Assembly: GCA_020049855.1 (NCBI GenBank)
Contig: JAGVLJ010000050.1
Location: forward strand, 1 to 57,010
Length of the DNA: 57,010 nucleotides
Direction: 5' to 3'
Origin: Bacteroidia bacterium
GTDB lineage: Bacteria; Bacteroidota; Bacteroidia; UKL13-3
Made by a program: the position numbers and the translations under genes
In this document: positions 15,246 to 43,637 of the stretch, piece by piece
Layout: each line of letters begins with the position of its first letter
Position numbering within the stretch: the stretch's first letter is position 1
Notes under the pieces: generated by a model
The model's input: the letters and a program-made list of their open reading frames with translations, nothing else
Told to the model about the DNA's origin: nothing
Databases searched by the model: none

Positions 15246-15618
15246 TGTTTTATATTTAAAATTTTGTGGGGCAAAGTTCCACTAAATAAAAGGGATTCGC
15301 AAAAATGATTGTATAAGGCAGGCGGTGAAAGCGGTGAACGGGGTGTTTCAGCCGACCAACTGCAGATTAATCTTCTTTTTTGGATCCTGTCAGTCTATTT
15401 TATTCAAATTGTTCATAATAACACCTCAATTAAAATGTCCCTTAATGAGCTTGCATTTTCAAAACTAACTATTATTTTCGATTAAAATTTATATGTAAAA
15501 AAAGATAAAACCCAATTATGAAACCCCTTTACCTAGGGTAAAGTTGTTTTCAGGTAGCCGAATTCGCCTAACCCTTTGTGGGAAATGCAATCTGTTTTTT
15601 ATCTAATTGTTAAATTTT
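15246..15618. other. Gene-free intergenic region with a palindrome
   Basis: 373 bp between divergent lemA and a small secreted-protein gene. No open frame with coding character is visible. At 15527-15543 there is a perfect palindrome CTTTACC-TAG-GGTAAAG, about 75 bp before the secreted-protein start, which may be an operator. An unusual GC-rich patch (about 15320-15365) precedes AT-rich sequence. Confidence 0.4.
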
Positions 15619-15689
15619 ATGAAAAAGAAATCAATTTTAGTACTAACCTTCATCATATTTGTTGGTCTTAGTACAGTTTTAAAAGCTAG

Positions 15690-15698
15690 CCCCCCCCC
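15690..15698 (+). repeat. C9 homopolymer at the signal-peptide junction
   Basis: Nine consecutive C bases encode Ser-Pro-Pro-Pro immediately after the predicted signal peptide. Poly-C of this length is exceptional in this AT-leaning sequence and is a typical slippage site. Confidence 0.75.
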
Positions 15699-15933
15699 GC
15701 ACACTTCCCCTTTTCTATTAGAGTTGCACTCTAAACCAAAGATACAACATTCTACTTTTTTGCTTCCGCTTGTGTCTAGTTCAATATTTATAGACAATAT
15801 TGGGAAAATACCGATAACAGACTTCACTATCCAAATTCAGAAAAAATGTACAACCACAGTCTCCGGAGTATGGACAAGAGATGATACTGCACCGGATGAT
15901 CCGGCCAGAAATGGATGCCTTCAACCCTACTCA

Positions 15934-15949
15934 AATACATGAATACATG
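15934..15949 (+). repeat. 8-bp tandem duplication causing the frameshift
   Basis: AATACATG occurs twice in direct succession (15934-15941 and 15942-15949). Excision of one unit restores a single reading frame across the site. Confidence 0.85.
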
Positions 15950-16194
15950 CTATCAGGTAATTGGAAATTGCTCAAGTGATGACCCAACAGAATCCGCTTA
16001 TTTACCAACCCTTCATTCCGGAGATATACTAGATTGCGGCTACTGGAATTCTTCAGGTAATTTCATTAATGAGAGTTTGGAAGTGCTAACCATTACTAAC
16101 ATGGGCAACTATCCCGGATATTCACAAGATAAACTCAATATTATAAGTGGGATTTATATTTTCACTATTAAATACCAGTCCACTGGTGATGTTT

Positions 16195-17355
16195 ATGAAG
16201 TTAGAATGCGCAAAATATAGTATCATTATGCATTTATTTATGCTGGCCATTGTACCTTGTGCTTTTGGCCAGCATATCTATTCACACCAACTTAACTTGC
16301 CTGCAATGATGCAAGAAACCATCCGCCTTCATAAAAATAATGTATCAACCATTGAAAACAATTTGGTCATTCAAAATGCGCAAACATTGATGAGGTACAA
16401 TCTGGAATCGAACGACCTTGAAACCGCAATATATGTTGACACTTTAATTGACAAGCATGTACTTTTACGTTTAATAAAAAAGGAACATTCCCATAAAACC
16501 CTTAGTATCGTAACCTTTCTGGACAAGATTGATGGACAGAAATTTTTGTCTCTCTTTGTTACCCCAAATAAGATAGACGTAGTATTATCTGTAAATTGCT
16601 ACTATTTTAATCAAGAGAACCCACAAAATATTACCGCTTTAAACGTGTGTTTCTTACTAACTTTTGAGAAGGACCTTCGTTTAAAAAGTTATTTCGTTTT
16701 ACCACTTTATGGTGAGGGAAATGAAATAGCCTACTCTTCATCGTTTCTTTATGATTCAATCGGAAAATGTTACTTTTTTAGCAATTCATTAATGATTGAC
16801 TCTGCCTCAACCATGGGAAATACAAAAGTTCGCCTTTCAAAAATCCTCCCCACTGCCGATAGCAGCAGTCAGGTTTTCACTTCATATTTCTGTGAGTCAA
16901 TATGTGAAAATTTAATTCATAAATATTTAACTGATTATAAAAATATTGTCAACTCCCCTGAAATTTGCAGTAAGTCCATTAGGTTTATTCCACCGGTAAC
17001 ATTTATACATAAAACCCAAAAACCTGTGGCCTTTTGTGATGAAGAATTGGTAGATTTTGATAGTTGCAGGCTTATATTAAAGCTTAAAAAAGATCAAAAT
17101 ACATGTTGTATTCAATCATTTTTAATTGATAATAAAATATACTCATTAGGATGGTACCGTAAGTCGAACTATGTCCAATACACCTTATCAATTTTTGATT
17201 CAAATGGTAATCTGATAAAGTCTATTCCTATAGATAATATGGCCTCAAAACTATTTCAGCTGAATTCAAATGATTTATTTTACCTAAAGGCAGAAGGTCA
17301 TATGACTACGGAAAACCGCAATGTGTATATACAACAAATTCCCCTGACTGAATAA
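16195..17355 (+). CDS. Secreted protein of unknown function
   Basis: From ATG 16195 the protein has 386 residues; the segment YSIIMHLFMLAIVPCAFGQ is a signal peptide ending at Gly-Gln, as usual in this phylum. An alternative start is ATG 16228, just after the upstream stop. The mature part has no family I recognise; repeated beta-type blocks such as LRLIKKEHSHKTLSIVTFLD and LILKLKKDQNTCCIQSFLID suggest a beta-propeller-like or WD-like fold, but this is a guess. There is no T9SS sorting domain. It overlaps or closely follows the frameshifted secreted gene, so the two are probably co-transcribed. Its low GC resembles that neighbour. Confidence 0.7.
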   Translation: MKLECAKYSIIMHLFMLAIVPCAFGQHIYSHQLNLPAMMQETIRLHKNNVSTIENNLVIQNAQTLMRYNLESNDLETAIYVDTLIDKHVLLRLIKKEHSHKTLSIVTFLDKIDGQKFLSLFVTPNKIDVVLSVNCYYFNQENPQNITALNVCFLLTFEKDLRLKSYFVLPLYGEGNEIAYSSSFLYDSIGKCYFFSNSLMIDSASTMGNTKVRLSKILPTADSSSQVFTSYFCESICENLIHKYLTDYKNIVNSPEICSKSIRFIPPVTFIHKTQKPVAFCDEELVDFDSCRLILKLKKDQNTCCIQSFLIDNKIYSLGWYRKSNYVQYTLSIFDSNGNLIKSIPIDNMASKLFQLNSNDLFYLKAEGHMTTENRNVYIQQIPLTE

Positions 17356-17388
17356 TGAGTACTTAAACAACCAACTTGATAAACGATT

Positions 17389-18093
17389 TCAACCGACCAA
17401 TTGCATCTGAAACAGTTCGGCTATATATTTTTTAAGCAATGCCTTTACTTCTTCAAAGTCAACCGGTTTGCCAATTTCCTTTTGAATAGAAGTAACGGGT
17501 TTATCGGTGATGCCGCAGGGAACTATATGCCTGAAATAACTTAAATCGGTGTTTACATTCAGTGCCAGACCATGCATGGTAACCCAGCGGCTGCAACGCA
17601 CCCCCATGGCGCATATTTTACGCGTGCGTTTTAAATCGTTCGCATCTATCCATACACCGGTTAGTCCTTCAACCCGTCCGCCTTCAATACCATAGTGCGC
17701 AATAGTTTTAATAATGGCTTCCTCCAGGGTGCGCAGGTACAAATGGATATCGGTAAATACCTGGTCGAGGTCGAACACCGGATACGCTACCAACTGCCCG
17801 GGACCATGGTAGGTAATGTCTCCACCCCGGTTAATTTTATAATAGGTGGCGTTGATGTTTTTTAAAAAGGTATCATTTACCAGTAAATTGTTTTCCGAGC
17901 CGCTTTTGCCCAGCGTGTACACGTGCGGGTGCTCGCAAAAGAGTAAATCGTGTGTAGGTAGCTCCTGTCCGGCAGCAGGTATATCCCGGTTTTTTACTTT
18001 TAAAGCCACCTTGGCCGCCAGCAGTTCTTCCTGCAAATCCCAGGCTTCTTTATAATCTATTCCACCTAAATCTTTAAAATAAACGTTTTGCAC
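17389..18093 (-). CDS. lipB: Octanoyl-(acyl carrier protein):protein N-octanoyltransferase
   Basis: LipB transfers octanoate from ACP to lipoyl domains, the first step of lipoate synthesis. The 234 residues show HPHVYTLGKSG near residue 55, RGGDITYHGPGQLVAYPV near 89-106, the catalytic-region Lys in TRKICAMGVR near 145, MHGLALNV near 164, and the catalytic Cys in HIVPCGI near residue 181. The start codon is GTG at 18093, only 4 nt after a TACCTTTG box, so the mRNA is probably leaderless. Length is normal. It is divergent from an RHS-like secreted protein. Confidence 0.95.
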   Translation of the reverse strand: MQNVYFKDLGGIDYKEAWDLQEELLAAKVALKVKNRDIPAAGQELPTHDLLFCEHPHVYTLGKSGSENNLLVNDTFLKNINATYYKINRGGDITYHGPGQLVAYPVFDLDQVFTDIHLYLRTLEEAIIKTIAHYGIEGGRVEGLTGVWIDANDLKRTRKICAMGVRCSRWVTMHGLALNVNTDLSYFRHIVPCGITDKPVTSIQKEIGKPVDFEEVKALLKKYIAELFQMQLVG

Positions 18094-18160: not shown

Positions 18161-19198
18161 ATGAAAAAAAGGATCCTTCTGATAGTAGCCCTTTTCGCAT
18201 TCACCTGCCTGAAGGCACAAGTGGTTTATCCCGGATATTCTTATTCACTCCGAAACGGATTGGGTACCAGTTATTATTTTGAATCGGGGCCGTTTGGTTT
18301 TTTCCAGACTGATTTTATCAAAAAAAATAAAATTGACTCGGCTTGTGTGCAAACATTGAATTGCGCTAACGGAAAAACCACCGGCACCGTTGCTTCGCAA
18401 AGTGAAATCATTTACGACAGCACCTCGAGGCCGGTGAAGCGCACCTTTTTTGAAAACGGAAAAATGAAATACAGTTACCGCTACCAAACTACCCCGCTTG
18501 CCGGAAGAGGATGGGCCTACCAAACCCAATCGTGGAATAAAAAATTTAAACTTATTTATGCAAGCATTCACCATTACGACAGTGTAGGCCGCAGCGACAG
18601 CTCGTGGATTAAACCTTCGGATAAGAAGCCTTTTTATTTGTCGTATGTGTCGGTAAACAACTCCGCTAAACTTCTTGTTTTCTCCGGAAATTTTAATGAG
18701 AAAGGCCAACTTTACATCGAAACAAAATACACCTATAACGAAACCGGGAAAGCCTTACAAACCATGGCCACCTTTAAAAAAGGAAAACTGATACGTTTTA
18801 CCGACTACCGCTGCAAAACACAACCCGACACCCTTAAAATTCATGTGGTGAATGTGTGTGAGCGTACCGATAAAGACCCGATGGGAAATATTATAGAAAT
18901 TAAAGAACAGAAAACAGGCAGGGAAAGTTATGTGATAAAATACAAATGGACCCCTGATAAAAAACGGCTGATTGAAATAATGGTAACAACGGATAAACTA
19001 AAAAACAATTACCGGATTGCCTATGCTTATGATGACCAAAACCGGGTGGTGCAAATAGAGCAATATTACGGAAACTCCACACAACCCAAATGGGTAAAAA
19101 AATACATGTACCCCAGCACCCTCTCGGCACAAAGTGAAACGTATAAAAAGGGGAAATTAACTGCGGTGTATGTGTACCGGTTTAGCAGTAACAATTAA
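18161..19198 (+). CDS. Secreted RHS/YD-repeat-like protein
   Basis: The 345-residue protein starts with signal peptide MKKRILLIVALFAFTCLKAQ. The mature part contains imperfect beta repeats of the YD type: YDSTSRPVKRTFFENGKMKYSYRY (as two blocks around residues 87-110), YNETGKALQTMATFKKGKL around 192-210, and YDDQNRVVQIEQYYG near residue 290. Such repeats usually form shells or elongated beta structures on secreted proteins. No C-terminal toxin or sorting domain is visible. It has a strong own promoter. The substrate or role is unknown. Confidence 0.75.
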   Translation: MKKRILLIVALFAFTCLKAQVVYPGYSYSLRNGLGTSYYFESGPFGFFQTDFIKKNKIDSACVQTLNCANGKTTGTVASQSEIIYDSTSRPVKRTFFENGKMKYSYRYQTTPLAGRGWAYQTQSWNKKFKLIYASIHHYDSVGRSDSSWIKPSDKKPFYLSYVSVNNSAKLLVFSGNFNEKGQLYIETKYTYNETGKALQTMATFKKGKLIRFTDYRCKTQPDTLKIHVVNVCERTDKDPMGNIIEIKEQKTGRESYVIKYKWTPDKKRLIEIMVTTDKLKNNYRIAYAYDDQNRVVQIEQYYGNSTQPKWVKKYMYPSTLSAQSETYKKGKLTAVYVYRFSSNN

Positions 19199-19204
19199 CA
19201 ATAC

Positions 19205-22069
19205 CTAGCGAATCAAGCTAATTATTCCTGATGTATTAATTCTTTGATTGGTACATTTTGCCGAAAGCACATAAGAATAAACTCCGGGTGGAATTTTTTC
19301 ACCTTTCCATCTAAAAGAAGGATCGGTGGTTTGAAATATTTTTTCGCCCCACGCATTATAAATAGTCAACTCAAACTTTTCAATGCCGGCATACACTATA
19401 AAAAAATCATCATTTATACCATCTTCATTCGGACTAAAGGCATCGGGTATCCATAATACCGGCTGGTAATCTATACAAACTTCATTACTCAATGAAAAAC
19501 CTTCCACAGGTGATTCAAAATTAACCTGAATACGATAGCAGCAGGCTTTACCCCCTAATTCAAAAAAACTATTATCGTAATAAATCTCTGATGGGTTCCA
19601 TGTGCATACATTTTGAAATGCATTTCCTTCCCTGCTGCGCTGTATGGTATATGATTTTACCTTTCTACCTATCTGCTCATAGGCAGAAAACCGCACTACG
19701 GCCTTTTCATTACTTTCAGCGGCCGCAATCATAAGTACCGGTTTAACCAAATTTCCCATTATTGAATTATTGCCGCAACTATCAACAGCCGCCATTCGAT
19801 AATAGTTTTCATTCAGTGCCGAACCTGTTGAATCAATAACCATTGTATCGGGCAAAATAAATTTATCAGTAAAACTTACACCATCTCTGGCATAAAGCAC
19901 TTTGTAGCTATGCGCATTCTTTACAAAGTTCCACTTTAGCACAATATGATTATTTTCATTAAAAGTGGCAGAATATATTTCCTGTAGATAGTTTGCAGGT
20001 AAACCGGGTGTAACCATTATTTGTTGCGTATCGGTGGTGATACAACCTGTAGGGCCTTTTAGTTTTTGTATCACATCACTTGCTCCTTCTCCGGTAAATG
20101 TTTTTTCGAGCATACCGTTATCAGCATTAAACCACGACACCCCGTTATCAAAACTGTAATAAAAACTGTCAACTTTACCTTCTGTTCTTGGCTTAATAAT
20201 GGTTTTTAAAGGGCTACATCCTTTGTCCGGAGAAAAGTAAAAGCCGGGTTTGGGAGCTTCCAAAATGGTAACCTGCTGCTGCAATAAAAAACTATCTGTA
20301 CAGTAACCATTAAAATAGGTTAGTTTTAGTGTATAGTTTCCGCTTTTTGTGTAAGTATGTAGTGCAACTGTTGAATTGACCAATGTATCATAAATAATTT
20401 GGCCATCGCCAAAATCCCATTTTTTATACGCAGTGCCCGTTTTATTGGTTAAACTTTTTGACGTATCACTTAAAATAAATGACACCCATTGGCAACCGGT
20501 TTGAGTTTGGGTAAAAAAACTGGCTTGCGGAGGAAAATGCTCAGGCTTTATCTCAATACTATCACTGTACCATAAGTGGTAACCGGCCGGTGTGGTGGCA
20601 CGTAATTTCACAAAATACACCCCCGGTTGTGTAAAGGTGTATTGCGTGTTTACCGCATCGGTGCTGTCTGCATTAATATACCACCTGTATTGGTTAAAAC
20701 AACCGGTATCGCTCAGGTTGTAAAAATGGGTTATACCATCGCAATACCTATTGGGCATACCCAAAAATTTTACCCGCATAAAATCGTTATAGGAAGAAGG
20801 AAGGCTGTTCATTCGGGTATAAAAGGTCCAACTATCTCCATTTGAAAATGGATACAGAAAATAAGGCATTACAATTTTATCGGTAGTTATTTTACAGCCC
20901 TCGCCTGCCCTATCGGGTTTTTCAATGCTGCCCATCGTATATTCATTTGAGAGATGCCCCCCAATATACACCTTTCCGTTTGGGGCAAGCTGCAGGCAGG
21001 TATAAGTGCTTTTGTTCGACTGCCACCAATAGGTTTGTTTAAAAACCCCGTTTGAGTCTAATTGGTATTGTACAATGCTGTTATATGCCCCCGCCTCACT
21101 CCTGCCTGACAGCGGTGCTGTCAATGCATACAAAATGGAATCTCCGGGAGCAAAAACAGCATCGTGAAAAGTTTGAGTACCCTGTATCCCCCATTCATAA
21201 CATAAACTATCAATGAGTGTAGGAGACTGCACTACCCCTGTGGCCGGATTAAAGGGGAATTTATATAGAAATGACCTGTGATACCCCTTTGCCTTTAACG
21301 CAGTATCCTCAAAACTCAAAAATAAAGCGAGTGATTGCCCGTTGTGGGCTACCTTAAAACCTCCTGATACTCCACTGCTATTATAATACCGACCTACATT
21401 TTTAGCCGGGTCATCAAAAAAAGTTTTGAAGGCGAGGTTAATCCCCGAATTTGTAATTGAATACACCAAAATGGTATCAAGTGCTCGGGCAAGTAGCCAA
21501 AAATCTTTTTTATTGCTATGCCGCACGGTGGCCAACTCATAGGTGTTGTAGGTGTTAAGCAACCGCCTGCTGCTGTCAAGCACCTCGCCCAGCCCTCCGT
21601 TTTTGTTTACATCCACCTCCCTGTACCCTAGGGGAACTATTGGCACTACATTCGGGATGAAAGAAGGATCGGGGTATCCACCTAAAAATACATAATACCT
21701 GCCCGGCTTACCTGGCACGGGCAGTACAACCGATGGGCTAATGGTGGGTGTGTAGCTAATGAATTTGACATCCACAGAACCGAAGGAGCCCTTCATTTTC
21801 TGATGATTTTTGGTCCAAACGGTATCGCCATCGGTATAAAAAAGCAGATTCCCCAAACTATCGGAAACCGCCTGAGTACCTCCTGCCGCGTGCATGGCTG
21901 TTTTAAAAAAAGAAGGAGGCTCGGTTCTAAAATCCCAACCGTATCCGGCCGAACCAAAACACCAGTTGTTGCTAATTTGTGCGTTTACTCCTGTAACCAC
22001 CACCACCCAAAAGGCTACCCCAAGGATAACCTTTTTTACATAAAGCAGTGCTGTAAGATTTTTTTTCAC
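19205..22069 (-). CDS. PKD-domain protein with T9SS type B sorting domain
   Basis: The 954-residue protein begins with a hydrophobic signal segment (LYVKKVILGVAFWVVVVTGVNA). The N-terminal ~400 residues look like a beta-propeller with repeated YxFPFNP, GKVYIGG and LAPNGKVYIG motifs. PKD domains follow around residues 450-650 (YKKWDFGDGQIIYDT), then fibronectin-like stretches. The C-terminus WIPDAFSPNEDGINDDFF...YNAWGEKIF is the gliding-motility-associated (type B) T9SS sorting domain. It is therefore exported and attached or released by T9SS. The start overlaps the stop of the upstream frameshifted giant gene by 4 bp. Confidence 0.9.
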   Translation of the reverse strand: MKKNLTALLYVKKVILGVAFWVVVVTGVNAQISNNWCFGSAGYGWDFRTEPPSFFKTAMHAAGGTQAVSDSLGNLLFYTDGDTVWTKNHQKMKGSFGSVDVKFISYTPTISPSVVLPVPGKPGRYYVFLGGYPDPSFIPNVVPIVPLGYREVDVNKNGGLGEVLDSSRRLLNTYNTYELATVRHSNKKDFWLLARALDTILVYSITNSGINLAFKTFFDDPAKNVGRYYNSSGVSGGFKVAHNGQSLALFLSFEDTALKAKGYHRSFLYKFPFNPATGVVQSPTLIDSLCYEWGIQGTQTFHDAVFAPGDSILYALTAPLSGRSEAGAYNSIVQYQLDSNGVFKQTYWWQSNKSTYTCLQLAPNGKVYIGGHLSNEYTMGSIEKPDRAGEGCKITTDKIVMPYFLYPFSNGDSWTFYTRMNSLPSSYNDFMRVKFLGMPNRYCDGITHFYNLSDTGCFNQYRWYINADSTDAVNTQYTFTQPGVYFVKLRATTPAGYHLWYSDSIEIKPEHFPPQASFFTQTQTGCQWVSFILSDTSKSLTNKTGTAYKKWDFGDGQIIYDTLVNSTVALHTYTKSGNYTLKLTYFNGYCTDSFLLQQQVTILEAPKPGFYFSPDKGCSPLKTIIKPRTEGKVDSFYYSFDNGVSWFNADNGMLEKTFTGEGASDVIQKLKGPTGCITTDTQQIMVTPGLPANYLQEIYSATFNENNHIVLKWNFVKNAHSYKVLYARDGVSFTDKFILPDTMVIDSTGSALNENYYRMAAVDSCGNNSIMGNLVKPVLMIAAAESNEKAVVRFSAYEQIGRKVKSYTIQRSREGNAFQNVCTWNPSEIYYDNSFFELGGKACCYRIQVNFESPVEGFSLSNEVCIDYQPVLWIPDAFSPNEDGINDDFFIVYAGIEKFELTIYNAWGEKIFQTTDPSFRWKGEKIPPGVYSYVLSAKCTNQRINTSGIISLIR

Positions 22070-25000
22070 CTGTTAATTAACACCTTGGTGGTAAACAAAG
22101 TTCGGTTATTTCCTTCAATGCTGCAAAGATAAATAGCATTTGTTCCGGGTAAATTAACCTGAAGTTCGCCCATAATGGTATGAATGGCTTGCGCCCATAC
22201 TATTTTGCCAAAAATATCGCGCACCACCACTCTCCCCTCAGTTACCCCATCGGGCAATGCAAACCGAACATTAAAACTACCTTGTGCCGGATTGGGGTAC
22301 ACACTGCACTGAGCCTGACGACCTGCTGCCGTGCCGGTTTTATTTTTCATGGCCTGGTAGGAAGCCGAAGCCGGATGGGTAAAAGTTTCCATCACTGGTT
22401 TATCGGTATAGGCAAGTAGTATGTTGCGTATGGTTTGTTTTACCTTTTCATTCCCGTTTTGCATTATGCCCGTTAGTTGCTCTCTTTGGCTGGCAGAAAG
22501 AAGAAAGTAGTTGCTGCCCCCCAAGTATAAATTTAATGAAAAGTCAACCAGATTGTGTTCTCCCTGATTGCTTATTTGGGGTAATAAGGATTGCGCCCCG
22601 GCATAATTACCTGCCTGTATTAATCTCAAGGCATCGGTAAAAGGGTCAAAATTATTTCGGATACTGTATTCTACATCGCCTCCCCCGTTTTGCCCCTCAA
22701 TGCAATAGTAGGTAAGGTTATTTGATGGAGGGCATAGGTTTGAATGATTATTAACTCCCAAACTTTTCCAATTGGGGTTACAAGAAGAGGGTACTAGAAC
22801 TTCCTCAACCGGGTTATTCGATTCATAATAGTACGGCCCGTAATTAGTTAGAGCCTGCACCGGAGCATCAAGTCGTATTATCTGAGTACATGGGTCGGTA
22901 AATTTATTACCTGCAGGCATAGTAGACGTACCTTGATCCGGAATACCGGTGACGGCATTTGAACTAACAGCCAAATTAAATCCGGTAAATGTGTTGCACT
23001 GAAATTGCAGGGTGTTATTGTCTCCACCATTGTTCACATCATCAAAAATGGCTAAACCTATATTGTTACTGCCGTTTGTATTGGCGTTAACTATCACATT
23101 TTGATAAACCGTAACCGGAAAAACAGTAGAGAGGTTGGGATGGCTTTCATTTATTGAAATGCCATGAATACCGGTAATTACTTCGGGATATTGAAAATCA
23201 ATTTGATTTTTATCAAGGGTAAAGCCTTCGGCATAATCTGTTTTTATGGCCGAGTTGGGGTAACTAAAATATGGATACTCGTCAAAATTGGTTGTCCAGT
23301 TAAACCGGTTGCCGTACACCTGTGTTTTAGTATCCCAATTCATGCCTATACCCATAGAAATATCAGTGAAATCGCAATCAAGTATATGCGCCTGACGGCT
23401 GGGGTCGTTATTAAAATTGTAAATAAATACCCCGTGTGTGAGCCCCTTAAAAGTAGTACGCACCCCGTTGGGAACAGTACAATTACCATTATAGAGCGAT
23501 GGATTAAAACTTGGAGTAACCCAATAAGTAGAATTCACGCTGATGATACCTGCACCCCTGAATTTGCTTCCAAACGGATTGTCATCTCCACCCGGAGCAC
23601 TATTCTCAAATGTGTTGCCCGAAAGCCACATATCTTTTATGCCAAATAAACTTACAAAGGAATAGGCTCCATCATTATCAGAAAAGTAGGGTAAAGAGCC
23701 CGTGCATTTGAAATTGCAATCCCTTACACGGCTTTTATTGCTGAAAGTAAAATCATAAAATCGGGCTGAAAAACGATTATTCATGAAAGTACTACCCTCG
23801 GCAAGTATTACCCCTCCGCCTTGCAGGCCGCTACCTCCTGGGTTATTGTATCCGGCACTTACGGCCATGTAAGCATGTTCTAACGTACAATTTTCCAAAA
23901 CCAAAAATCCGTGGTCGGGGTATAGCCCGGTAACCGCATTGGGTATTTGAGGCAGATTAGCATCGGCTTCTACATAAATGCCATCCCACATATAGGCACA
24001 ATTATCCGCTCCATTAGTAATTTTGGCTCCGTTTTTAATTACCAGCTTACCTCCCTTTTGAATAGTGAATCGGGCATTTTGAGGCATTTTCAAGGTAGTG
24101 TTGTCAATGGTAAGTGTATAACCCGAAGGAATAATATAATTTGAATACTGCCAATTAATGACCCCAACATTTTGTATGAGGATGGCATCATTTTGATCCA
24201 TTGTTTTTGACAAATAGCTTGGGCATGGTAGAGGTGATTCCCAAATACCTCTCCCATAAGTAGCAGCTCGGATTACACCTTTAGAATAAACTATATCAAT
24301 ATCTGAAACAGGAACAGACGGTAACTCCCCACTAATTGATGTCATAAAGCGACTCCATGTTGCATTTGGATTATTCAGGTTGGACAAATCAAAATAATAA
24401 ATGCCGTTCTGAAAATCAGCATATAATCTATTTCCAATAGCGTCAAGTTCCAAATCGTATAATTCAAGGTTAGGAAATGATAAATTAATATTTGAATTAC
24501 CTATTTGTCCAGGAATTGCAACCCTAGTATTTCCGGCATCTGTACTATAGAATACTGTATTATAACTATTGGAAGTGCTGAAAGCTCTCATTCCATCTAA
24601 GCCAACAAAAACCTTACTCTTATCATTTGGATCAACAACAATAGTTCTTACCCCTCTATTCTGCAGAGCACTTAAATTACTTGTTATATCCAACCACGTT
24701 GGAGTACCCGACAACGCATTCGTACACCTGAACATTACCTCAGGCGGTGGATCTACTCTATACCCAACATATATGTAGTTTTCATCAGATTCAGCCACAG
24801 CCATTGCAGTAATTGATGGGTCATACGTTCCTTTAATTACATTCAATGACCCAATTGCCTGCCATGAAACCGCCTTATTGCTACTCACATATACCTCATG
24901 ATACGCGGTATATACTTTTTTTGACACAGGATGCATATACATTGGCCTACGCCCGTCTTCCGATCTCTCAACATAAGTAGTACAAATAGCATTAGGATTA

Positions 25001-26521
25001 TTAGGACATGGGCCAATATTCATGTCCCATTCCTGGTCTGGTGTAAAATGGTATTTATATGGGGCATTCTCAGAATTCCAAGTCTGACCATAATCTGTGG
25101 TTTTAAATAGGCAAGATAAAAAACCTCTCGATGCTGGAGAGCCCTGACCGTAAAAAATTGATTCGTTTTCTAAATCCACCATACAGTTCCGGCCATCGTA
25201 ATAGATGGCGTTTTTCCATTCATTGATATTCCACTTATCTTTTTTAAACATGAAAATTCCGCAATCCTGAGCACCTGCTACAATATAATCACCGGATACT
25301 GAATTGCCCATTCCATAAAAGTGAAGATTGTTAAGGGAATGGTTTTGGTTTTGATAAAACCAAGTACCTCCATTATCAAATGATTGCGATAAGCCCCCAT
25401 CATTGGCGCATAACCATACTTCGGAATTTGTTCCATTAAGGTATGATTTTATCATTCGATGATCTGCATGAACCCAATCCGATTGATTTCTTGAATTGCG
25501 TTGCGAAATATTACTGGGTGTACAAATCGTATTTAGTTGCAGTTCATATTTGTATATCATATCTCTTCCTCCCCAAAAAACTGTATTAGCATTCAATTCA
25601 GATATTTCCATATCAAATTCATTAAAATATTGCACCTGATAAGCCGTCCATGTATTACCATGATCACTTGATATTTCGATTAGATTCATTGTTGCTATTC
25701 CATTTGGATAGAAAACTTCTATAGCTGCGCATAGTAAACCCCCACTTTCTTGTATATCAAACTGCACAATTTCTTTAAATGTAAAATTCTGTGGTAAATA
25801 AAAACTTGAACTGATATTGTTCCATGTTGCCCCTCCATCAGGAGTCACAATTAAATCACCTTGCGCTACACAATAAACCTGATTTGTAAGCGAGGGATCG
25901 CATTCTATAAATTTTATTTCCCCTGAAACTGGAAAGTTTGTTCTTGGGGTCCAAGTGACCCCAAGAATTTGTACTTTTAGCAAAATAGTTTAACGAGTTG
26001 TTGACTCTGGCCTGAGCGTAAAGAACATTATTAGGATAAGTTGTATGAGGGCTAAGAGCGAAATTTGAAACGAGATTATAATCCCATGGATTAAACGCTA
26101 TCCCAGTTTGAACCCAATTCTCTCCTCCATCTGACGTAACGAAAATCCCATAACTTGATCCAGCTCCATCATCTTCGAGTTTTGCTACACTTGAATTTGC
26201 AAATAGCACTTGTGAATTCTGAGCATCCATTTTGAGCTGAGAAACTCCTACTACATGAGGAAAACCATTGTTTTTTTCAACCCAATGATTGCCACCGTCT
26301 GTAGTTTTCCAAATTCCTCCTCCTTGCCCAGCTCCGCAATATATTTCATTTGTGTTTTGCGGATTAGCTTCTACGCAGAAAAAAGCTCCATTGCCAATGG
26401 GGGTGTAGTTGGAATTAACAGATTCGCCAAGTTTAACCGGCCCCAAGGGCCGCCATGTTTGGCCTAATGCGATATTTGAAATTGTTAAGAGTCCTATGAC
26501 AAAGTACGTTTTGGTTTTCAT
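22066..26521 (-). pseudogene. Giant secreted Asp-box/beta-helix protein with T9SS type A tail, split by a 1-base frameshift
   Basis: The first part (26521 to 25856) has signal peptide MKTKTYFVIGLLTISNIALG and BNR/Asp-box propeller repeats (KTTDGGNHW, TSDGGENW). The second part (25983 to 22066, up to 1305 aa) continues with more repeats (VTPDGGATW, KTTDYGQTW), then a right-handed parallel beta-helix region and a type A sorting domain (CSVYPNPAQGSFNVRF). Removing one A from the plus-strand AA at 25963-25964 restores KSTNSGVTWT, a perfect Asp box, and one 1,484-residue frame. It resembles glycan-acting sialidase/VPS10-like propellers, but no catalytic residues were identified. The shift may be a genuine mutation or a sequencing error. 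Confidence 0.8.
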
Positions 26522-26537
26522 AATACTATGCGTTTAA

Positions 26538-27509
26538 TTATTTTATCAAAAATTTTCCAGACAATTGCCTTTCATCCTCATTTGTAACCACAAAACTGTA
26601 AATCCCGTTTTGAAAATTTTGACCGGAAATTGAGACTTCCTTTTTTTGACCATCATAAGATTGGTGAACTATAACTTGCCCTAAAGAATTGTAAATGGCC
26701 AGTTTGTTTATTGTAAATGGTGAAACTATGGTAAATGGTTCATAAATACTTAAAGGATTTGGATAAACCTGAACCTTTGCAACAGCAATTTCATTGATTG
26801 ATTGGGGAGGAGAATAACATGGTCCAAATGAATTACTGATAATATCTATTCCATCATGTAAGAAACAAGACAAATTTACCAATCTACTTTGATAACATGC
26901 GTCACACAACTCGGTATAAAAAGGCGACAACAACGATCCAATACCTTCTACCCAAGTCATTCCCACACTATCAATTGACATGTTAAATACGTTTCGTGTA
27001 AATTCCAGTCTAATGGATTTTCTAAACCCGGTATTGGTTTGAAATGAGTCTATGCTTTTAACAATAGTATTCTCTGTTTCGAAAAATAATTTTGATTGAC
27101 TTAGCACTTTAACAGGTATTGTATCTCCGACTAAGACATTGAAATTGTACAACAAAATATCTGAACTGTCTCCAAAAAAATTTAACGGATATTTTACATA
27201 AACTTTTTTTGTCACTGTATCAGTATAAATCAGAGAGTATAACTTAAACCCAGTATCGTCATTGAAAACATACGGTTTACCCTTGAACACCTTTGAATAC
27301 CGTTTTCCATTAAGAATTGAATCCCCTTTTATTTTATATATCGTGGATACTGGATTAGAAAGGATTGAATTGTTATAATCATACACTGTGGTACTCCACA
27401 TCGCACTGTCTTTAGGAAAAGGGTGATAAACGCTTGTTTGAGCAGCGGATTTTAAAGGGGGTAGCAGCGTAAATGCCACCAAACACCATGAAAATAGTAT
27501 TGCTTTCAT
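26538..27509 (-). CDS. Secreted protein with T9SS type A sorting domain
   Basis: The 323-residue protein carries a signal peptide (LFSWCLVAFTLLPPLKSAAQ, ending near residue 24). The middle region (residues 30-230) has no recognised domain; the phrases VYDYNNSI and YVKYPLNFFGDSSDILLYNF suggest beta structure. Residues about 245-323 form a type A T9SS sorting domain: VQVYPNPLSIYEPFTI, LAIYNSLGQVI, NGIYSFVV. It lies next to the frameshifted giant T9SS gene in the same direction and could be co-transcribed. The binding target is unknown. Confidence 0.85.
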   Translation of the reverse strand: MKAILFSWCLVAFTLLPPLKSAAQTSVYHPFPKDSAMWSTTVYDYNNSILSNPVSTIYKIKGDSILNGKRYSKVFKGKPYVFNDDTGFKLYSLIYTDTVTKKVYVKYPLNFFGDSSDILLYNFNVLVGDTIPVKVLSQSKLFFETENTIVKSIDSFQTNTGFRKSIRLEFTRNVFNMSIDSVGMTWVEGIGSLLSPFYTELCDACYQSRLVNLSCFLHDGIDIISNSFGPCYSPPQSINEIAVAKVQVYPNPLSIYEPFTIVSPFTINKLAIYNSLGQVIVHQSYDGQKKEVSISGQNFQNGIYSFVVTNEDERQLSGKFLIK

Positions 27510-41099: not shown

Positions 41100-43637
41100 T
41101 TATCGCTTGCTTTTAACCTTCTTTTTGGCAACTTTTTTTACAGAAGCTTTTTTTGGAACGGGTCTTTTAGCTACTGCTTTCTTGGAAGAAGCTTTCTTGG
41201 AAGAAGTCTTTTTTGCCACCACCTTTGTAGCCGTTGCTTTTTTTACCGGAGTTTTTTTACCCGCAAAAGATTTTGCGGGAGTACCTTTAGGTGCTGCTTT
41301 CTTAGCTGTTTTCTTTGCGCCTTTAACAGGAGTTTCTTTAATCCCACCCTGCTTCGCTATAATTTCCATTACCTCTTTATAAGAGAGTTTCTCGGGTGCA
41401 GGAGAACCTTTTGGTATTTTAAAATTTTGTTTGCCGATAGCAATATATGGCCCCCATCTACCTTTGAGAACCTGAAGCCCTTCATGCTCTTTATATATTT
41501 TCATTACCCGCTCGGCATCCGATTTACGTTTGGCTTCAATAAGTTCAATAGCGCGATTTTCTTCTACGGTATAAGGGTCATCTGTTTTAGGCAACGAAAC
41601 AAATTTATTATCGTGCAACAGGTATGGGCCAAATTTACCAATAGAAACTTTAATTTCTTTTCCTTCAAATTTACCGGCCACCCGTGGAAGTTTAAACAAG
41701 CTGAGTGCTTCTTCCAAGGTAATTCGCTCAATGGTTTGATTTCCCCTCACCGATGCATATGTAGGTTTTTCCTCATCGGTATTCTCGCCTATTTGTGCCA
41801 GAGGGCCGTAACGGCCAATTTTAACATACACATTTTTCCCGCTTACCGGATCTGTGCCAAGCAACCGTTCACCGGTTTGTTTCTCGGCAGTTTCAATGGT
41901 ACGCTCCACTGTTTTATGAAAAGGCCCGTAAAACGATTCGAGCATTTTATTCCACTTCAACTGGCCCTGAGCAATCTCGTCAAACTCCTTTTCTACCATA
42001 GCGGTAAATCCAAAATCGAGGATCTCCCCAAAATTTTTCACGAGAAAATCGTTTACTACCGAGCCAATATCGCTGGGAAATAATTTTGATTTTTCGGAAC
42101 CAAAATTTTCCGTTTTTGTTTCTTCTTTTAGCTTGTCTGAAGCACTTAAGGTAAGCACTTCAAAGGTGCGCTCTTTCCCATCTCGGTCTTCTTTTACCAC
42201 ATACCCTCGTTTTTGAATAGTAGAAATAGTGGGTGCATAAGTAGAAGGACGACCAATCCCAAGTTCTTCCAGTTTTTTCACCAAACTTGCTTCGGTATAG
42301 CGCGGGGCAGGACGCGAGTATTTTTGCACGGCAGTCATCTCGTGCAATTTCAGTTTGTCACCTACCTTTAACGGGGGCAACATTCCGGCATTTTCTTCAT
42401 CGGCATTATCATCATCTTTCGATTCGAGGTACACTTTCAGAAATCCGTCAAATTTCATTACTTCTCCGGTAGCAATAAATTCTTCTACAGCCGAAGACAC
42501 ACTTATGGTGGCTGTTGTTTTTTCCAATTGTGCATCGGCCATTTGCGAAGCGATGGAACGTTTCCATATCAAATCATATAACCGTTTTGCTCCATTATCT
42601 CCATCAATTACTTGATTTTCGAAATAAGTTGGCCGAATGGCTTCGTGCGCTTCCTGCGCTCCGCTACTCTTGGTAGTGTACCTGCGGGTAAATACATATT
42701 CACGTCCGTAACTCGATTTGATTTCTTTTTGGGCAGCATCTAATGCAAATTCCGAAAGGTTTACAGAATCGGTACGCATATAAGTGATATGACCCGACTC
42801 ATATAATTTTTGCGCGATGGTCATGGTTTGTGAAACAGAAAATCCCAATTTACGACTGGCTTCCTGTTGCAGAGTAGAAGTAGTAAATGGGGCAGCCGGA
42901 GATTTTTTTGCCGGTTTTGTTTCGAGATTTTTAATTTTATAAGTAGCTCCTTTACATTTTTCCAAAAAGGCTCTTGCCTCTTTGTACGTGCTGAAACGTT
43001 TTGGTAATTCAGCCTGCATTTTCTTTCCAGAGCCATCAGTAAGCACAAACTCGGCACTTACTTTATAATTGAACGTTGTTTTAAAATTTAAAATTTCGCG
43101 CTCCCGCTCCACAATTACTCGTACCGCTACCGATTGTACCCTTCCGGCCGATAGACTCGGCTTCACTTTTTTCCAGAGAATGGGCGAAAGTTCAAAACCT
43201 ACCAGTCTGTCTAAAATTCTGCGTGCCTGCTGCGCATCTACCAGATTCATATCAATAGAACGTGGTTTGTCAATAGCTCTAAGAATGGCAGGTTTGGTAA
43301 TTTCATGAAAAACTATTCTGCGTGTTTTACTTTTTTCAAGCTCAAGCACCTGCGATAAATGCCAGGAAATGGCTTCTCCCTCACGATCCTCATCGGATGC
43401 GAGCCAAATGATATCACTTTTATCTGCCAGCCCTTTTAGTTCTTTTACCAACTGCTTTTTGTCGGGGTCTATTTCATAAACCGGCTTAAATTTATTTTTG
43501 ATATCAATGGCATTATCTCCTTTCACAAGGTCGCGGATATGGCCATAACATGACTTAACCACGAAATCTTTTCCAAGAAATTTCTCTATGGTTTTAGCCT
43601 TTGCAGGCGACTCAACAATGACGAGATTTTTAGGCAT
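41100..43637 (-). CDS. topA: DNA topoisomerase I with Lys/Ala-rich tail
   Basis: The 845-residue type IA topoisomerase relaxes negatively supercoiled DNA. The toprim domain starts LVIVESPAKAKTIEKFLG (residues 5-22) with the acidic DEDREGEAI near residue 82. The catalytic Tyr is Y286 in GHITYMRTDS. Three zinc-ribbon-like repeat blocks appear around residues 590-760 in a cysteine-poor form (GPYLLHDNK, WGPYIAIGKQNFKIPKG). The last ~80 residues are Lys/Ala/Pro-rich (KKAAPKGTPAKS, VKKATATKVVAKK), a common extra DNA-binding tail in this phylum. It is followed by a SirB1-like gene in the same direction. Confidence 0.95.
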   Translation of the reverse strand: MPKNLVIVESPAKAKTIEKFLGKDFVVKSCYGHIRDLVKGDNAIDIKNKFKPVYEIDPDKKQLVKELKGLADKSDIIWLASDEDREGEAISWHLSQVLELEKSKTRRIVFHEITKPAILRAIDKPRSIDMNLVDAQQARRILDRLVGFELSPILWKKVKPSLSAGRVQSVAVRVIVEREREILNFKTTFNYKVSAEFVLTDGSGKKMQAELPKRFSTYKEARAFLEKCKGATYKIKNLETKPAKKSPAAPFTTSTLQQEASRKLGFSVSQTMTIAQKLYESGHITYMRTDSVNLSEFALDAAQKEIKSSYGREYVFTRRYTTKSSGAQEAHEAIRPTYFENQVIDGDNGAKRLYDLIWKRSIASQMADAQLEKTTATISVSSAVEEFIATGEVMKFDGFLKVYLESKDDDNADEENAGMLPPLKVGDKLKLHEMTAVQKYSRPAPRYTEASLVKKLEELGIGRPSTYAPTISTIQKRGYVVKEDRDGKERTFEVLTLSASDKLKEETKTENFGSEKSKLFPSDIGSVVNDFLVKNFGEILDFGFTAMVEKEFDEIAQGQLKWNKMLESFYGPFHKTVERTIETAEKQTGERLLGTDPVSGKNVYVKIGRYGPLAQIGENTDEEKPTYASVRGNQTIERITLEEALSLFKLPRVAGKFEGKEIKVSIGKFGPYLLHDNKFVSLPKTDDPYTVEENRAIELIEAKRKSDAERVMKIYKEHEGLQVLKGRWGPYIAIGKQNFKIPKGSPAPEKLSYKEVMEIIAKQGGIKETPVKGAKKTAKKAAPKGTPAKSFAGKKTPVKKATATKVVAKKTSSKKASSKKAVAKRPVPKKASVKKVAKKKVKSKR

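Follow-up and report, generated by a model that had tools for sequence, protein, structure and literature searches.

Does a secreted-protein gene that carries a run of nine cytosines behind its signal peptide, and is broken further on by an exact 8-bp repeat, switch on and off, or has it been knocked out by an ordinary mutation? The window, i.e. the whole stretch of DNA analysed here (57,010 nucleotides), is the entire contig C51 of the draft genome of an uncultured Bacteroidia bacterium (G000; 2.91 Mb, 84 contigs, 99.4% complete), which we compared with G001 and G002, two sister genomes from its genus, and with 61 further genomes of the family. The nearest named match found for its LipB protein, 68% identical, is that of Bacteroidetes bacterium UKL13-3. 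The features of the locus are:

15346..15364, no strand: left border repeat TTTCAGCCGACCAACTGCA, matching the lipB 3' end at 17 of 19 positions (comparison with G002)
15365..17386, no strand: accessory low-GC islet with two orphan genes for secreted proteins (missing from both G001 and G002)
15619..15942, plus strand: broken gene, first part, with signal peptide, C9 and in-frame TGA (ORF reading, shuffle test)
15690..15698, plus strand: C9 tract immediately behind the signal peptide and in phase with the ATG (sequence)
15934..15949, plus strand: AATACATG twice, a tandem duplication creating the TGA and the frameshift (sequence, shuffle count)
15950..16220, plus strand: broken gene, second part, in frame +2 relative to the ATG, ending at TAG 16218-16220 (codon usage, shuffle test)
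16195..17355, plus strand: second orphan gene, with a signal peptide judged by eye (ORF reading)
17387..17405, no strand: right border repeat TTTCAACCGACCAATTGCA, the native lipB 3' end (comparison with G002)

The frame that starts at ATG 15619 is open until TGA 15940-15942, after residue 107, and the +2 frame is open as far as the TAG. The duplicated stretch reads AATACATGAATACATG, and the TGA is present only because the two copies abut, so that it straddles both. An earlier note on this DNA had located the C9 tract directly behind the signal peptide and the doubled 8-mer, and had stated that the gene is out of frame solely through the duplication. On re-reading, its letters and coordinates were exact and the break fell exactly at the duplication; with one copy fewer, the two adjoining open frames become one secreted protein of ~197 aa. 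In dinucleotide shuffles the chance of such an open frame was 0.0008 and 0.001 for the two halves (~0.1% each). Codon usage of the second half scored +0.13 per codon, compared with +0.18 for genes of the window and -0.16 off frame, while the first half scored -0.08, at which coding is not clear. Since both halves are open beyond chance and the second half is supported by its codon usage, we concluded that a single gene split at the duplication is the right reading. The signal peptide (MKKKSILVLTFIIFVGLSTVLKAS) is typical as judged by eye; the product would be a secreted protein, with a putative role at the surface. A Pfam search that included the T9SS sorting domain PF18962 gave no match in the second half of the broken gene or in the downstream gene.

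Comparison with the sister genomes revealed that the gene lies in an islet of 2.04 kb, in which GC falls to 0.31-0.37 and which is flanked by direct repeats of the lipB 3' end that agree at 17 of 19 bp. In G002 the sequence left of 15364 is directly continuous with that from 17386 and carries a single copy of the repeat, and G001 is without the islet as well. The second orphan gene starts at 16195 or at ATG 16228, the latter eight bases past the stop codon of the first gene. Both genes probably form one operon, in which case the premature stop in the first may also reduce expression of the second. No relatives of the broken gene were found in the 64 family genomes, in ~400 genomes of the class or in plasmids (DNA), and a contig scan with its first half gave none either; weak matches (E 0.001-0.6) were treated as chance. 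For the downstream gene there were no convincing relatives in the family genomes and none in phages. Another stretch of the window that is missing from G002 (19185-26755) holds two large ORFs of 954 and 1305 aa, the larger with a TTG start and no obvious signal peptide.

The C9 tract reads CCCCCCCCC and is translated within Ser-Pro-Pro-Pro; no other C or G run in the 57-kb window exceeds 6. It is in phase with the first half of the gene, which is already interrupted downstream of the tract; the break is caused by the duplication and not by the in-frame C9. Across G000 we counted 20 C/G runs of at least 9, where ~2-4 are expected, an expectation extrapolated from run-length decay, so that the choice of model decides how strong the excess appears. 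In 198 kb of the genome, runs of 4, 5, 6, 7 and 8 numbered 605, 134, 15, 5 and 1, respectively; these stretches were partly picked for long runs, so that only the counts through length 8 are a fair sample. Counts thus drop about five-fold with every extra base through 8 and then return at 9-10, giving a bimodal distribution. A first-order Markov model, which predicts ~19 runs of at least 9 per genome, fits poorly at runs of 7 and above; it was dropped because it predicts 5.4 such runs in the window against 1 seen, and run-length decay fits better. Loss of MutS as the origin of the long tracts was unsupported, since each of the three genomes of the genus has a MutS-type gene. With the C9 and the genome-wide excess, the gene has a tract longer than chance in the 5' part of its coding sequence, as is expected of a contingency locus.

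Eight C/G tracts of at least 9 in G000 lie in ordinary genes, namely fabH (ACP synthase III), dprA, DHFR, an FtsX-type permease, a LysM glucosaminidase, a Kdo-transferase, a LuxE-type and an HgdD-type gene, and all eight are in phase, which provides a built-in control on assembly quality. By comparison, four of seven secreted-protein genes in G000 are out of phase at the tract (contigs C5, C25, C40 and C76; Fisher p ~0.03 against 0/8, worked by hand). Five tracts of this genome follow the start codon and precede the hydrophobic core of a signal peptide, two of them in phase (contigs C20 and C78) and three out of phase and followed by open frames of 1299 aa (C5), 331 aa (C25) and 963 aa (C40). 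The product of the C5 gene is a subtilase that ends in a T9SS sorting tail, as the proteins of C40 and C78 also do. The secreted protein on C76 (L064:2503-3334) likewise has a T9SS sorting tail, and its gene is broken in the middle at a G10.

These five genes (L181 on C5, L190 on C20, L191 on C25, L182 on C40 and L192 on C78) and one gene of G002 (L183 on C49, with a C8 in phase) have tracts of C8-C10 within a common promoter-leader cassette of ~110 bp, composed of TTG, a TAnnTTTG-like box, a short leader, the tract and the hydrophobic core. We take the TTG and TAnnTTTG-like box to resemble the Bacteroidota promoter type. The six cassette genes are strong candidates for phase variation. A search of the genus with a model of the cassette found two strong extra members, one of which (G000 C20:26797) is degenerate. 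The other (L215, G002 C40:106505) is an in-phase gene with an interrupted tract (CCCCCACA); it is the apparent counterpart of the tract gene on contig C20 of G000, in which case the pure tract is not conserved. At three further loci (L218, L220 and L225) the cassette leader is not followed by a secreted-protein gene; in its place is a stretch that these loci share and that contains no long frame. Two genes on contig C45 of G002 (L222 and L224) belong to the mature-protein family of the C40 and C49 tract genes and have a tract-free leader. Contig C83 of G000 has a C9 tract at two places (L067:3066-3074 and L067:6237-6245), each 50-75 bases ahead of a secreted-protein gene; they may be promoter or leader tracts.

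Outside G000, a pattern of ATGAAA followed by C8 was no commoner than its reversed control; we therefore judged such loci singly by their open frames. G008 and G012 have a C10 at a similar place, without the cassette and in phase, in genes whose proteins are 97% identical. Four genes of G035, G036 and G037 (L184, L185, L186 and L187) carry tracts of C8-C11 close to the start codon; none of the four has the cassette, all are out of phase, and three have related long signal peptides. Some of the loci (L071, L073 and L074) do not look like genes. Altogether, in 7 of the 12 genes with a tract in the signal peptide in G000 and the family, the tract is out of phase with an open frame that follows it.

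We favor, at about an even chance of being right, the explanation that an 8-bp duplication with no connection to the C9 inactivated an accessory secreted-protein gene, whose C9 may be a contingency tract. The two genes of the islet would encode secreted orphan proteins, and a single 8-bp tandem duplication, an ordinary mutation, would have knocked out the first of them in the assembled allele. The C9 would be a separate site at which gain or loss of one C, presumably by slippage, would turn the gene off. Slippage there is plausible as tracts of at least 9 are in excess in this genome, several lie in secreted-protein genes and these are often out of phase; C9 as a contingency tract of this gene is likewise plausible. 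To that extent the phase-variation reading proposed earlier stood, with the excess of long C tracts and with several of them at the starts of secreted-protein genes, some in phase and others out of phase. C/G tracts are also in phase in the eight ordinary genes, hence C9 by itself is no proof of a switch. Counting against the favored explanation are the weak codon signal of the first half and the lack of a cassette, for which the sequence model (R1) gave no match near 15619. The tract is in phase, and it follows the signal peptide, whereas the cassette tracts lie inside it, before the hydrophobic core. That the gene belongs to a genome-wide poly-C contingency set, in which C8-C11 at signal peptides would switch secreted proteins, several of them T9SS-tailed, is a tentative idea to which we give a rather low probability.

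Plain decay, in which an orphan gene of the islet under little selection gained the duplication and the C9 is incidental, is a possible though not a likely account. It agrees with the absence of the islet from both sisters and the orphan state of the gene, with the in-phase tracts of ordinary genes and with the missing cassette, but both halves are still open, so that the duplication is the only sign of decay, and long C/G tracts are clearly in excess in G000. We consider it unlikely that the contig holds a minority or false duplication, through assembly or strain mixture, while the gene is intact in most cells: the genome is indeed a draft in 84 contigs, but the assembly has all eight homopolymer tracts of ordinary genes in phase, and an exact 8-bp duplication is unusual as a sequencing error.

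The earlier note had regarded the C9 and the 8-bp pair as two slippage sites that switch the gene, a view that fits the presence of both in one secreted-protein gene and the restoration of the frame by loss of one 8-bp copy. The frame-broken secreted-protein gene held up, but the 8-bp pair as a second site did not. There are two copies only, and exact 8-bp tandem pairs occur in the window at chance level (2 seen; 1.2 +/- 1.2 expected from shuffles). As such pairs are no rarer than chance, the best reading of this one is an inactivating mutation that arose once rather than a switch; a two-copy 8-mer at a frame break is what one duplication event normally leaves, and only its position is remarkable. 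Arrays this short are not known to act as fast switches, and a switch with two sites is, on these grounds, quite improbable. Of the short tandem pairs found in the window, the longest is an exact 15-bp duplication at 41176-41206. A ribosome hop from the ACA that precedes the TGA to the matching ACA eight bases downstream, yielding some full-length protein, is hardly credible, since the matched ACA codons on either side of the stop that suggest it arise automatically with any such duplication, and we saw neither a stimulating structure nor conservation.

Neisseria (PMC5084427), Campylobacter (PMC8355987), Bordetella (PMC1891110) and Helicobacter (PMC2823697) provide examples of translational phase variation through homopolymeric C/G tracts. 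Those systems resemble the present gene in that its C9 lies near the 5' end of a secreted-protein gene and in that G000 has other C8-C11 genes in both phase states; they differ in that the tract here is in phase and seen at a single length, the break lies elsewhere, and the host belongs to an uncultured Bacteroidia lineage. Homopolymeric tracts at 5' ends have been presented as a general means of gene inactivation in a survey in which poly(A) and poly(T) were over-represented and poly(C) and poly(G) generally under-represented (PMC2831843); the position of the tract is alike in our gene, whereas the tract is poly(C). In Bacteroides, of the same phylum, phase variation of surface products proceeds by DNA inversion (e.g. 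PMC5903667, PMC8375218) rather than by tract slippage. A limited search of the open literature, mostly of abstracts, returned no homopolymer or slipped-strand phase variation in Bacteroidota or in connection with type IX secretion, and phase variation based on slippage seems to be little described in this phylum.

The broken gene of the window alone is of small importance, and it is the wider group of genes with poly-C leaders that is worth following. If their tracts do switch expression, uncultured Bacteroidota would gain a second route, beside DNA inversion, to vary secreted and T9SS-exported proteins.
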